This document shows, piece by piece, positions 29,000-33,144 of a DNA stretch of 60,635 bases; position 1 is the stretch's first letter, and each line of letters starts with the position of its first letter. A model generated the notes under the pieces. That model ran no database searches, had not been told where the DNA came from, and was given only the letters and a program-made list of their open reading frames with translations. The DNA lies in contig CALUYT010000045.1 in assembly GCA_944325085.1 (NCBI GenBank), positions 1-60,635 of the forward strand, read 5' to 3'. The DNA is from Candidatus Gastranaerophilales bacterium (GTDB lineage: Bacteria; Cyanobacteriota; Vampirovibrionia; Gastranaerophilales; Gastranaerophilaceae). A program made the translations under genes and the position numbers.

Positions 29000-29347
29000 A
29001 TGAATATACAGAAGTTAAATCCAATAGGATATGAAGCTAAAACAGAAAACGGAAATACTTACAAAAGATCAAACATCGGAAAATATTGTTCAGTAGCAGC
29101 TTTCGCAGCTATGGACGCAAGTCCTTATATATTTAAAAAAAGCCTAACAGCTAAATTTATTGCAGGTGGAGACTGGGTAACATGGCTTGCTGAAATGTGC
29201 AAAATTAAAATCCCTGAAAAATATAAAGGGTTTTTAACAGCATGCGGTATTGCAATAGATTTAGCAATAGCATATTGCGGAGGCAAAATGATTGATGAAT
29301 CTATCAACAGAAAAAGAATAGCTAAAGCAGATTCTGTAGAAAAATAA
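29000..29347 (+). CDS. Small unknown membrane protein
   Basis: I do not recognise this 115-residue protein. The N-terminus is hydrophilic (MNIQKLNPIGYEAKTENGNT). Two hydrophobic stretches follow (about 33-58 and 74-95, FLTACGIAIDLAIAYCGG) and a basic tail. Like its downstream neighbour it contains no histidine. AAAGG lies 11 bases before the ATG. It could share origin with the other lineage-type membrane proteins here. Confidence 0.65.
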   Translation: MNIQKLNPIGYEAKTENGNTYKRSNIGKYCSVAAFAAMDASPYIFKKSLTAKFIAGGDWVTWLAEMCKIKIPEKYKGFLTACGIAIDLAIAYCGGKMIDESINRKRIAKADSVEK

Positions 29348-29349
29348 AC

Positions 29350-29377
29350 TTTACTTTTATTATATTTTTTGTATAAT
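29350..29377 (+). promoter_or_regulatory. Promoter of the His-leader transcript
   Basis: TATAAT (29372-29377) has TTTACT 16 bases upstream (29350-29355). Transcription would begin near 29384, just before the leader-peptide SD AAAGGG. Confidence 0.7.
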
Positions 29378-29400
29378 GAAGGAAACAAAAAGGGAATAAA

Positions 29401-29460
29401 ATGATTATAAATATTTTACAAAAACATCATAACCATCATATCAACCTGAAGGGGTTGTAG
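29401..29460 (+). CDS. Histidine-rich attenuator leader peptide
   Basis: A 19-codon reading frame encodes MIINILQKHHNHHINLKGL. It has a good SD (AAAGGG, six bases from the ATG) and four His codons among five consecutive codons (29425-29439). It is too short for a normal gene call but is placed exactly as a leader peptide: promoter upstream, antiterminator and terminator downstream. Its final codons (29445-29458) form the RNA strand that pairs with the 5' arm of the terminator. In known his operon leaders, ribosome stalling at His codons when charged tRNA-His is low frees this strand. Confidence 0.85.
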   Translation: MIINILQKHHNHHINLKGL

Positions 29461-29554
29461 GATTGATGATGCGCTTGTAAAAATAATAAATTCAATTCTT
29501 TTAACAACTTCTTCAGGATAAAAAGCGAGAAGTTGTTTTTTAGTAAAGAATTGA
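29434..29554 (+). promoter_or_regulatory. Histidine-type transcription attenuator
   Basis: Three mutually exclusive pairings are visible. (a) The His-codon segment 29434-29446 pairs with 29460-29471 (CATCAT with ATGATG, CAA with TTG). (b) 29445-29458 (CCTGAAGGGGTTGT) pairs over 14 bp, two of them G-U, with 29504-29517 (ACAACTTCTTCAGG); this is the antiterminator. (c) 29503-29512 (AACAACTTCT) pairs perfectly with 29528-29537 (AGAAGTTGTT), followed by a T run to 29541; this is the terminator. A further helix TCAATTCTTT / AAAGAATTGA (29492-29501 with 29545-29554) would cover the start of the downstream SD. Confidence 0.88.
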
Positions 29555-29565
29555 GGTTAAAGATT

Positions 29566-30891
29566 ATGACAATAACAAATATAATTTCGGCAATTGGAAA
29601 TAATAGCAGCATTTACCCATTAATGGTAAGGGATTTATGTATTGAAGCCCCTTCAAAAATACTTATTGCCAGAAAAGAAAACTTAAAAGAATCAAGAGAA
29701 ATTGCAAATGATGCAACAAGAGAAAAAACTATTGATGAATACGCAACATCTGCAATTTGGTTAGGCGGAATTCCTGCAACAGAATACGTTGTTGATAAAT
29801 TCATATCCAAAAAAGGGTATAACCCTAATGTTAATTTAAAATTATTTAAAGAAGAAGAATCATTAAAAAATACTCCGAAAGAGATCTACCAAGGTTTAGA
29901 ATATAATATTAAAAAATTCGGCAAAAACACAACAAAAGAAGTTCAAGATGCAGTAGCTGATTTAATAAAAGTTAGAGATAACAAATCTGTATTTGAAGGA
30001 TTACTTACTAAAAAATTTATAGCAGCAACTGTTATACCTACAGTAATTATGGGTTTTGTATTACCAAAATTAAACTTTGCTCTTACTAGAAAAATTAGAG
30101 AACAAAAAGCTCAAAATAAACGTTCACAAAATTCACAAGAACAAATAAAACAAACCTCATTTACATCTTTTGACAGAAAAATTTTCTCTGACTTTTCAAA
30201 TAATCAAAAAAATAAAAATATCAACTTTACAGGTAGTTTAGTTTCAACAATCGCCAATTTGCGAACAGTTGATAAAATGGCAATTTCAGACGGAGGTTTA
30301 ACTGTAGGCAGAGTTTCAACTTCCAGAAACAAAGAAGAAGGCTATATGAATGCTTTCAGAATGATTGGTTCAATGATTTTGAACTTTGTAACTCCTATTT
30401 ACATTGCAAAAGGTTTAGATAAACTTGCGAATAAAATATTTAAAGTAAATGTTAATCTTGATCCATTAATTTTAGAAAACAAAGAATTTATTGAAGCTAT
30501 AAAAAATAATAAAATAGAATTACCAAAATCAAATTCAGCAAAAGATTTATTTGAATTTATAGACACAAAACCTAATTCATTATTTGCAAAATTTGCTCAA
30601 CAAGCAGGAGAAGTATCATACTTAGAATGCGGAATAAGAGATCCTAGAAAATATGTTGATGTCAAAAAATTAGGCAAATTTAAAGACGAATTTGAAAGAT
30701 TTATAAAATCTGCACAAAACTCTAAAAACATAGAAAAATTTGCTAAAAAAGCTAAATTTATAAAATGTGGAAACATATTGGCAAACGTAGGTATTTCAAG
30801 TTTCTTATTAGCAGGAGTTTTACCGGTTGCAACATACAAATTTGTAAAACTTACAACAGGATCTTATTCAGACCCAGGCTTAAGAAAATAA
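29566..30891 (+). CDS. Unknown membrane protein under His attenuator
   Basis: This is a 441-residue protein of no family I know. I place the start at the ATG at 29566, nine bases after GAGG; a TTG at 29533 lies in the terminator stem. Hydrophobic segments lie near residues 162-182 (FIAATVIPTVIMGFVLPKL), 268-292 and 412-432. The middle is Lys/Asn/Gln-rich and carries QTSFTSF and NINFTGSL (about 205-230), the F-motif seen at the N-terminus of other unknown proteins. By eye it contains no histidine residue at all. It is convergent with the calpain-like gene and directly abuts it. Confidence 0.8.
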   Translation: MTITNIISAIGNNSSIYPLMVRDLCIEAPSKILIARKENLKESREIANDATREKTIDEYATSAIWLGGIPATEYVVDKFISKKGYNPNVNLKLFKEEESLKNTPKEIYQGLEYNIKKFGKNTTKEVQDAVADLIKVRDNKSVFEGLLTKKFIAATVIPTVIMGFVLPKLNFALTRKIREQKAQNKRSQNSQEQIKQTSFTSFDRKIFSDFSNNQKNKNINFTGSLVSTIANLRTVDKMAISDGGLTVGRVSTSRNKEEGYMNAFRMIGSMILNFVTPIYIAKGLDKLANKIFKVNVNLDPLILENKEFIEAIKNNKIELPKSNSAKDLFEFIDTKPNSLFAKFAQQAGEVSYLECGIRDPRKYVDVKKLGKFKDEFERFIKSAQNSKNIEKFAKKAKFIKCGNILANVGISSFLLAGVLPVATYKFVKLTTGSYSDPGLRK

Positions 30892-33144
30892 TTATGCCAT
30901 CATTGGATATTCATAGCATTCAATACCTGCGCCCAACTTTTCAAAATTTTCTCTTGTTATAGTTATTTTATCTGTTGAATCCCAAGGATTTAACAGATAA
31001 ATATTATTTTTATCACTTCCGATAATAGAATATGCATGTCTAGAAATAATAGAATAATTATCTTCTTTTTCGCTTTTTGCAAGACCATTAATCGAAATTT
31101 TATCAGCAGCCTTTAAATGCATTTCATAAACACGATTAGGATTATTAAAATCTTCATCTTTAGGATCTACATGTATTCTTCTATTCTGGGAATTAATTCC
31201 AAATAAACATTCCCATAAAAACGAAGAAAAATTACCATCTATCGTTACATTATTAATAAACTCAAAATTATCATCTATAAAAAAGAGGTTTTCTCTTCCT
31301 TCATAACTTTCATCTCTTATTAATTTATCCATAGCAATCTCAACAGCATTAACCTTCTCACTACCTGTTGATAATGCAGTATATTCTTTTAAATCTGTTT
31401 GAGTAATACGATAAGTTTTTTTAATACCCTTTAAATTAACAATATAATCACCTGATTTAGAATCAAATGTTACCAACTTTTCAAGTCTTTTTCTCATTTC
31501 AGGTTTTGCAATAATTGAATTTAACCCCGCAAGAAGCCAACAATCACCAGTCCTACCTTGCTTAATTTGACCTGAAAAAGTTTTATTATTTTGGGTATCT
31601 AATTTTTCTTTTTCTGATTCAGGAGTTCTAAAATCACCACTTCTTGAATTTTCAGCACGATATATATCAACTTCGATTTTATGATTATCATCCGGATGAG
31701 ATGCTATATCTCTTCTAATTCTACTTTGAACTTCAGGAGATTTTTCATTTAGTGATGCATTAACAATTTGCTTTATAAGATTTTTTCTAACACTTTCTTT
31801 TAAGCCTGTTTCATTTGATATTGCAGTTAACAAACCCTCTATCGGATACAATTTATCTGAAATCTCGCCAAGGTCACAATCTATAGAAGAAACTTGATAT
31901 AAAATATTGGACAAGTTTATTGCATCAACTCTCATATCTCCTTGCTTTTCGTGTGATAATCTTTTATATTGAGCAAGTACATATTTAATATTATTAGAAT
32001 CAATCATTTGAACATGTTGAGAAAGCTTCCCGCTACCAGGCCCATAAATATCATCAAAAAGTTTTTGAGCAAGATATTCACCACTTTCTTTTGCTGGAGC
32101 TTTTTTACAATACAAAGCTTCAATATGATTAATCAATTTATTACGCAAACTTGGAGGTAAACCTATTTCATCTTCAATATCTTGCATTAAATCTCTATCT
32201 GTTTGTTTTTTATAATTCTCAAGAATTTCATCAATATTATCATAATTAATTCTTTTCAAAACATTTTCGGAAATAGAAGAACGAGTTGTAGGTAGCCCTA
32301 AAGCATTTTTCGCAGTAATATCTGCGTCTAAATCATTTACAAGCGGATATTCTGTTTTTCCATTAAATTCTTTTTTATAAGGCTTGCCATTTGAATATTC
32401 AACTATCCATTCGGCCATGCATCCACCTTTTTTCCAATAATTTTGAAATTTTATTTGTCCTGTTTTTTCATCATAATTGGTATTTTTTGAGTCTCCGTTT
32501 GGATAATCTTCACGTACTGATCTTGGGAAATAGGAATCTTTATTATATAATTTCGTAATTTTAGTTCCATCTTTCATTGTTACCAATTGATAACCATCAA
32601 TTTCATTTTTTCTATTTATTTCAATGCGACTTTCATTTTTTCCATCATGAAAAACTATCATTGAACCAAAATAATTTGAAAAAATTTTAAATACAGGTTG
32701 ACCTTTTTTATCTGTAACAATTATTCCATTATTAGAATTTTTTACAACATTATATTTATCTTTATTATACTTATTTTGTAAATTTTCAAAAGAATAAGCT
32801 GACATATTAACAGTCTTATTATCTTTCATTTCAAGTTCCGTAAACTTTGGATGATATTTTTTAGGAACTTCAACATAATTTGCAGGTTTTTGTTTATTTT
32901 TATTTTGATCAGAACCGATATAAAGTCCCATATTTTCATAACCTTTGAGACTCCAACTTTTATTATCAAAATCCTGTTTAAAATCAAATAAAGGCTTTTT
33001 TAACTCAGCCAATTCAGCTTCATTGATAATCTTTTCCTTCAACATAATAGAATAAACTTGTTTCATACTCATATTCTTATATTGAGGATGAGTATGGCAA
33101 AATTGTTCATATTTTTGCTGCGGAGACATTTCCGGAATTGGCAT
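30892..33144 (-). CDS. Calpain-like (C2 family) cysteine protease
   Basis: The 750-residue protein has a C-terminal papain-like domain with the calpain signature. Q-x-R-x-GDCWLL places the catalytic Cys at 535, RHAYSIIG gives His703, and LLNPWDST gives Asn719. The N-terminal 500 residues are unknown: a short helical start (PQQKYEQFCHTHPQYKNM), then a region with repeated short strands (FKIFSNYFGSMIVFHDGKNE, DGYQLVTMKDGTKIT). No signal peptide and no calcium EF-hand are evident. Calpains are mainly eukaryotic and patchy in bacteria. The gene is alone, convergent with the His-attenuated gene. Confidence 0.85.
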   Translation of the reverse strand: MPIPEMSPQQKYEQFCHTHPQYKNMSMKQVYSIMLKEKIINEAELAELKKPLFDFKQDFDNKSWSLKGYENMGLYIGSDQNKNKQKPANYVEVPKKYHPKFTELEMKDNKTVNMSAYSFENLQNKYNKDKYNVVKNSNNGIIVTDKKGQPVFKIFSNYFGSMIVFHDGKNESRIEINRKNEIDGYQLVTMKDGTKITKLYNKDSYFPRSVREDYPNGDSKNTNYDEKTGQIKFQNYWKKGGCMAEWIVEYSNGKPYKKEFNGKTEYPLVNDLDADITAKNALGLPTTRSSISENVLKRINYDNIDEILENYKKQTDRDLMQDIEDEIGLPPSLRNKLINHIEALYCKKAPAKESGEYLAQKLFDDIYGPGSGKLSQHVQMIDSNNIKYVLAQYKRLSHEKQGDMRVDAINLSNILYQVSSIDCDLGEISDKLYPIEGLLTAISNETGLKESVRKNLIKQIVNASLNEKSPEVQSRIRRDIASHPDDNHKIEVDIYRAENSRSGDFRTPESEKEKLDTQNNKTFSGQIKQGRTGDCWLLAGLNSIIAKPEMRKRLEKLVTFDSKSGDYIVNLKGIKKTYRITQTDLKEYTALSTGSEKVNAVEIAMDKLIRDESYEGRENLFFIDDNFEFINNVTIDGNFSSFLWECLFGINSQNRRIHVDPKDEDFNNPNRVYEMHLKAADKISINGLAKSEKEDNYSIISRHAYSIIGSDKNNIYLLNPWDSTDKITITRENFEKLGAGIECYEYPMMA

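Follow-up and report, generated by a model that had tools for sequence, protein, structure and literature searches.

Why is the gene for a membrane protein that contains no histidine preceded by a leader with a run of histidine codons? The question is raised by a locus in the 1.89 Mb genome of a Candidatus Gastranaerophilales bacterium (gut Melainabacteria). The window, that is the whole stretch of DNA that was analysed, is contig C45 with a length of 60,635 nucleotides, and all positions are counted along it. The original prediction had read the locus as a histidine-type attenuator in front of a gene for a protein of 441 residues. The named relatives that match this protein are Candidatus Gastranaerophilales or Melainabacteria from animal guts.

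Elements of the locus

The elements of the locus are as follows.

29350-29377, + strand: sigma-70-like promoter TTTACT-16-TATAAT (-35 TTTACT at 29350-29355, -10 TATAAT at 29372-29377)
29401-29460, + strand: leader peptide ORF of 19 codons, MIINILQKHHNHHINLKGL (ATG at 29401-29403, stop TAG at 29458-29460)
29425-29430 and 29434-29439, + strand: regulatory His codons of the leader; the HHNHH run CATCATAACCATCAT occupies 29425-29439
29414-29482, + strand: pause, or anti-antiterminator, hairpin (29414-29421 with 29475-29482; His codons 29425-29430 with 29466-29471)
29445-29458, + strand: antiterminator 5' arm CCTGAAGGGGTTGT (covariation; arm swap and shuffle controls)
29504-29517, + strand: antiterminator 3' arm ACAACTTCTTCAGG, which shares positions with the terminator 5' arm (covariation; swap and shuffle controls)
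29503-29541, + strand: intrinsic terminator with a 10-bp stem, AACAACTTCT at 29503-29512 and AGAAGTTGTT at 29528-29537, and a T run to 29541 (covariation and constrained folding)
29493-29553, + strand: outer helix, CAATTCTTT at 29493-29501 with AAAGAATTG at 29545-29553, around the terminator and reaching the SD GAGG at 29553-29556
29566-30891, + strand: His-free predicted membrane protein of 441 residues from a Gastranaerophilales-specific family (ATG at 29566, stop at 30889-30891; hydropathy and AF2)

The leader ATG is preceded by the SD AAGGG. The promoter has 10 of 12 consensus matches; alone it is weak evidence, because the region contains 4 hits this good against 2.7 expected. Several orthologous leaders have a similar TTTACA..TATAAT upstream. 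The antiterminator is 14 bp long, with two G-U pairs, and the terminator escaped a simple scan because its 15-nt loop is long. Every coordinate originally given for the promoter, SD, leader, antiterminator and terminator was confirmed on the sequence, and the absence of His, originally judged by eye, was confirmed on the translation. The earlier account of the RNA anatomy was right in all of its elements but lacked the pause hairpin and the outer helix over the SD. No family, including His_leader, reached its gathering score when the window was scanned with Rfam.

Just 5' of the promoter and leader, an ORF of 115 residues without a Pfam match occupies 29000-29347 on the + strand; similar proteins are situated directly 5' of the leader in 12 named loci. 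The convergent neighbour on the other side (30892-33144, - strand) encodes 750 residues with a match to a calpain-type cysteine protease (PF00648, E = 3e-6, above the cut-off).

Conservation and predicted folding of the leader RNA

Most genomes of the genus, and many of the family, encode an orthologue of the 441-residue protein. The search for His-rich short ORFs upstream of homologues, suggested with the original prediction, located such ORFs before the gene in 43 loci and in 49 further loci. The leaders at these 92 loci have 14-30 codons, with 3-7 His each. All orthologues examined but one have a His leader of this kind. The exception is an incomplete locus (L044, G025:C23) that has no ATG and keeps the His run and the antiterminator; its His codons are in frame behind the stop of an upstream DUF167 gene. 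The arrangement of the histidines varies (HHNHH, HHHTHH, HHKHNH, HLHHHI and HHHHH), and the other leader residues are variable. Looking for homologues without the His cluster or the complementarity left the attenuator interpretation standing.

A covariance model search for more His leaders never returned more than one strong match per genome. About 340 kb of the bacterium's own genome contains no second SD-bearing His leader with a terminator, and none was found in stretches of 16-17 kb around hisG in six relatives. There are 19 CAYCAYNNNCAYCAY sites in the own genome, among which the leader at 29401-29460 is the sole plausible one.

The leader RNA fold lies 4.1 standard deviations below dinucleotide shuffles. 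When 40 leaders are aligned, 95% of the antiterminator cells are paired; 8 of the 14 pairs show compensatory change, and doubly changed cells number 29, compared with 5.8 in shuffles. The terminator stem is 94% paired, with compensatory changes at 8 of 10 pairs. In the pause hairpin the His codons pair with a downstream ATGATG; here 92% of cells are paired and there are 8 compensatory pairs against 1.4 in shuffles. Each of the three pairings is destroyed when the partner is slid by 1-3 columns. The antiterminator arm energy in ten divergent representatives is -22.8 kcal/mol for a species' own arms, compared with -15.8 kcal/mol when arms are swapped between species; for all 43 leaders it is -21.4 kcal/mol, compared with -9.8 kcal/mol after shuffling. 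The conservation of the antiterminator and terminator in homologues is thus upheld by compensatory changes.

The outer helix (CAATTCTT paired with AAGAATTG) surrounds the terminator and borders on the SD. Its first 8 bp are 99% paired, a near invariance that precludes a covariation test, and it persists in L025 and L026 despite inserts between terminator and SD. This conserved helix may sequester the SD of the gene. A segment 3' of the leader stop could mimic the SD segment and free the SD in the antiterminator state, a release that folding supports in some species. The two segments were compared with this idea in mind: 87% of cells pair, without covariation because the partner is nearly invariant.

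Constrained folding was carried out by imposing ribosome footprints on 41 leaders. The median probability of the terminator is 0.97 in the free RNA, 0.02 with the ribosomal A site at the first His codon and 0.97 with the ribosome at the stop. The proposed switch between competing strands, set by a stall at the His codons or arrival at the stop codon, therefore behaves as expected, and the predicted folding is that of a textbook attenuator, including termination without translation of the leader. The folding switch is unclean in L028 and L041 and partly so in L006, L034 and L035.

Among the family-level members, no terminator is recognisable in L038 and L040 and that of L036 is weak, so that control in these three loci, which lack a canonical terminator, may be translational. 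In some attenuators the terminator is replaced by sequestration of the ribosome binding site (PMC9413887). With a stalled ribosome, folding raises the probability that the SD is unpaired from 0.20 to 0.79 in L001; the mean over 42 loci goes from 0.23 to about 0.36. Translational control is at most plausible, because the release of the SD is clear only in some loci such as L001.

The histidine-poor protein and its relatives

The count of His across homologues agrees with that of the 441-residue protein. His is absent from 82 of the 92 orthologues; nine contain a single His and one contains two, which makes 11 His in 38,793 residues (0.03%). Five of the residual His occupy one shared site in related sequences. 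The His content is 1.43% in the sampled genome, for which about 340 kb (18% of the total) served as the baseline, and 1.48% in the sister paralogues; His is thus depleted relative to both the genome and homologues, the pattern of low cognate amino-acid bias. At the genome's 1.43%, the probability of zero His in 441 residues is about 0.0017. The His count of a single gene is nevertheless weak evidence, because 3 of the 97 proteins of at least 350 residues in the sampled genome are likewise His-free. The conserved leader, the pairings and the His-lessness in about 90 loci settle that the observation is real.

In a maximum-likelihood tree all proteins with the His leader form one clade (100/99), and the sister proteins form a second (99/95), which has a normal His content and is spread over several families of the order. 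Gains of His on the trees make up 8 of 4,846 changes (0.17%) in the His-leader clade, compared with 32 of 1,817 (1.76%) in the sister clade. Gains of Q, N, Y and M are similar in the two clades, and their Lys contents are nearly equal (12.5% against 12.9%). Phylogeny does not explain away the His depletion, as His gains are ten times rarer than in the sister clade. His has probably been purged by selection, which would let the protein be made when His-tRNA is uncharged.

The protein has no significant match to Pfam, NCBIfam, PHROGs or PDB sequences; matches such as those to EMC4, OPT and eIF2B are below threshold and due to chance. Hydropathy indicates two clear membrane helices and one possible one. 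The AF2 model is helical, with a mean pLDDT of 81, and Foldseek and VIA-align found no convincing structural relative of it. Rows of ABC transporters and helical proteins are scattered, and comparison with transporter folds gives at best a Foldseek E of 0.65 and a VIA Z of 6.4, with the helical matches again scattered. An FTG-like motif in the disordered loop shows only mild enrichment in the sampled proteome (7, compared with 2.6 in shuffles, which reach 8). That the target is not a histidine-biosynthesis gene, as originally stated, is borne out by the lack of any Pfam or NCBIfam family for the protein and by the varying downstream neighbours. The next gene in the window is on the opposite strand, as are 43 of the neighbours at the 74 loci that have one downstream. 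The target is therefore likely to be a single gene.

Most sister-clade members examined have a different conserved leader upstream, RRN(S/T)...MNLxWGL-stop (L045-L052, L054-L058, L060, L065, L066 and L068-L070; L060 is G000:C61:112800-115114, with the gene near 114300). This ORF has one match per genome in the four genomes searched, and its leader codons CTCAA are complementary to a TTGAG segment near the start of the sister gene. Its sequence suggests a leader or arrest peptide that has not been described. L053 (G034) and L059 (G045) have no WGL leader; they have another Arg-containing ORF, ...RRN...RLVLN-stop, followed by a terminator-like hairpin. The sister gene of the own genome is apparently split by an assembly break between the end of G000:C61 and the start of G000:C46 (L060 and L061).

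None of the 36 genus genomes tested encodes HisG, but all 23 order- or class-level genomes do. HisD is likewise missing from the own genome and from the 8 other genus genomes tested. The homologues in the 23 HisG-bearing relatives have no His leader, and the six that were read contain 2-5 His. Among the family genomes with a His leader, five lack HisG, whereas G050 and G056 keep both HisG and HisD. A strict link between leader and auxotrophy was rejected on account of these two genomes; histidine auxotrophy is usual for the leader but not required.

Interpretation and related systems

Anatomy, covariation, fold switching and His depletion are together best explained by histidine attenuation. 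Judged from sequence, the locus is very probably a ribosome-mediated His attenuator that acts on one gene, the product of which is a lineage-specific membrane protein purged of His. The signal of the switch would be His-tRNA. When charged tRNA-His is ample, the ribosome would reach the leader stop and cover the 5' arm of the antiterminator, allowing the terminator to form; in the same state the outer helix would also mask the SD of the gene. When charged tRNA-His is scarce, the ribosome would stall within HHNHH, opening the pause hairpin and leaving the antiterminator arm free, so that the polymerase would read through and the gene would be expressed. If the leader is not translated, the pause hairpin would hold the antiterminator arm and termination would win again. 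The His-free product could be made while His-tRNA is uncharged, as expected from low cognate amino-acid bias. Of the original histidine-attenuation interpretation, the His leader, the complementarity and the His-free product are conserved, while we infer the responsiveness to histidine and the need for a His-free product.

The attenuator could be real and the His-lessness incidental, a result of the composition of a helical, Lys-rich family or of shared ancestry. The 3 His-free proteins among 97 large ones and the common ancestry of the orthologues agree with such an origin. However, the orthologues have diverged to about 46% identity, the sister clade has 1.48% His at a nearly equal composition, and the tenfold rarity of His gains per change is not accompanied by any such difference for Q, N, Y or M. 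This explanation is disfavoured, and we consider it improbable.

Somewhat less probable still is that the His run stalls ribosomes through metal binding or general translation stress, with the protein avoiding His against metal binding. His-rich peptides do bind metals, and the other short ORF of the sister subfamily hints at a broader control by translation stress. The spacing and number of the His residues vary freely, however, which fits the counting of codons and not a fixed peptide motif. The stall geometry in constrained folding fits attenuation by starvation, the loss of his genes agrees with a histidine signal, and the controlled protein retains Cys, another metal ligand. The short ORF, which is conserved and has an SD, might also encode a working His-rich micropeptide, the RNA helices being incidental. 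This is disfavoured and very improbable: conservation is low outside the His run, the C-terminal part follows from the antiterminator arm, and there is covariation in three mutually exclusive helices.

Histidine attenuation of this kind has known counterparts. The his operon attenuator comprises a leader peptide, pause hairpin, antiterminator and terminator (PMC9413887). The present locus has a His-codon leader, an exclusive antiterminator and terminator (except in L036, L038 and L040) and a pause hairpin that holds the regulatory codons, which place it in this mechanistic class. We do not place it in the his-operon leader family: the Rfam model does not fit, and nor does the target gene. Like gammaproteobacterial hisL (Rfam His_leader), it has tandem His codons, a pause hairpin and an antiterminator and terminator that share strands; it differs in its lineage, in the lack of an Rfam match, in its target, here an unknown membrane protein, and in the extra helix over the SD. 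His-leader attenuators in the Bacillus cereus group, Peptostreptococcaceae and Erysipelotrichales control his genes or a His transporter; they are likewise short, with a terminator and antiterminator, and have three to five consecutive His codons (PMC9413887). In contrast, the locus described here belongs to Gastranaerophilales, and its His-free target is no recognised his enzyme or His transporter.

A protein that is needed when an amino acid is short tends to avoid that amino acid, a low cognate bias (Fasani & Savageau 2014, PMC4209129). There it is a statistical bias of biosynthetic enzymes, whereas here the loss of His is nearly total, the protein is no recognised enzyme, and a cis switch responds in all likelihood to the same amino acid. 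In Chlamydiaceae, down-Trp selection has depleted Trp from the starvation-phase proteins of auxotrophs (PMC3937554). The two cases resemble each other in that auxotrophic bacteria deplete the missing amino acid, but the chlamydial depletion is pathway-wide, with no dedicated leader before each depleted protein. The open-access literature searched yielded no paper in which a His attenuator controls a His-free protein outside biosynthesis, and none on a His attenuator in Melainabacteria. The original suggestion that the arrangement is undescribed holds for this literature; an earlier account elsewhere is possible.

There is about an even chance, as far as sequence can tell, that the locus encodes a dedicated effector of histidine starvation: a lineage-specific, His-stripped membrane protein made only when charged tRNA-His is scarce, with one leader RNA controlling both transcription and translation. 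The protein might conceivably aid histidine scavenging or survival of histidine shortage; sequence and fold searches gave no homology ties between the protein and histidine. As the sister subfamily is situated behind a different leader peptide, the whole family may form a system by which gut Melainabacteria respond to translation stress.

The locus would offer a clear example from nature of an exact match between what a cis switch senses and the amino-acid composition of its product, and would make the idea of cognate bias testable at the level of a gene. It would also extend ribosome-mediated His attenuation to the non-photosynthetic gut relatives of cyanobacteria. Histidine shortage would provide the first functional handle on a protein family without a known domain, and, because these bacteria lack HisG and HisD, the locus points to the way in which a histidine auxotroph may cope with shortage in the gut.
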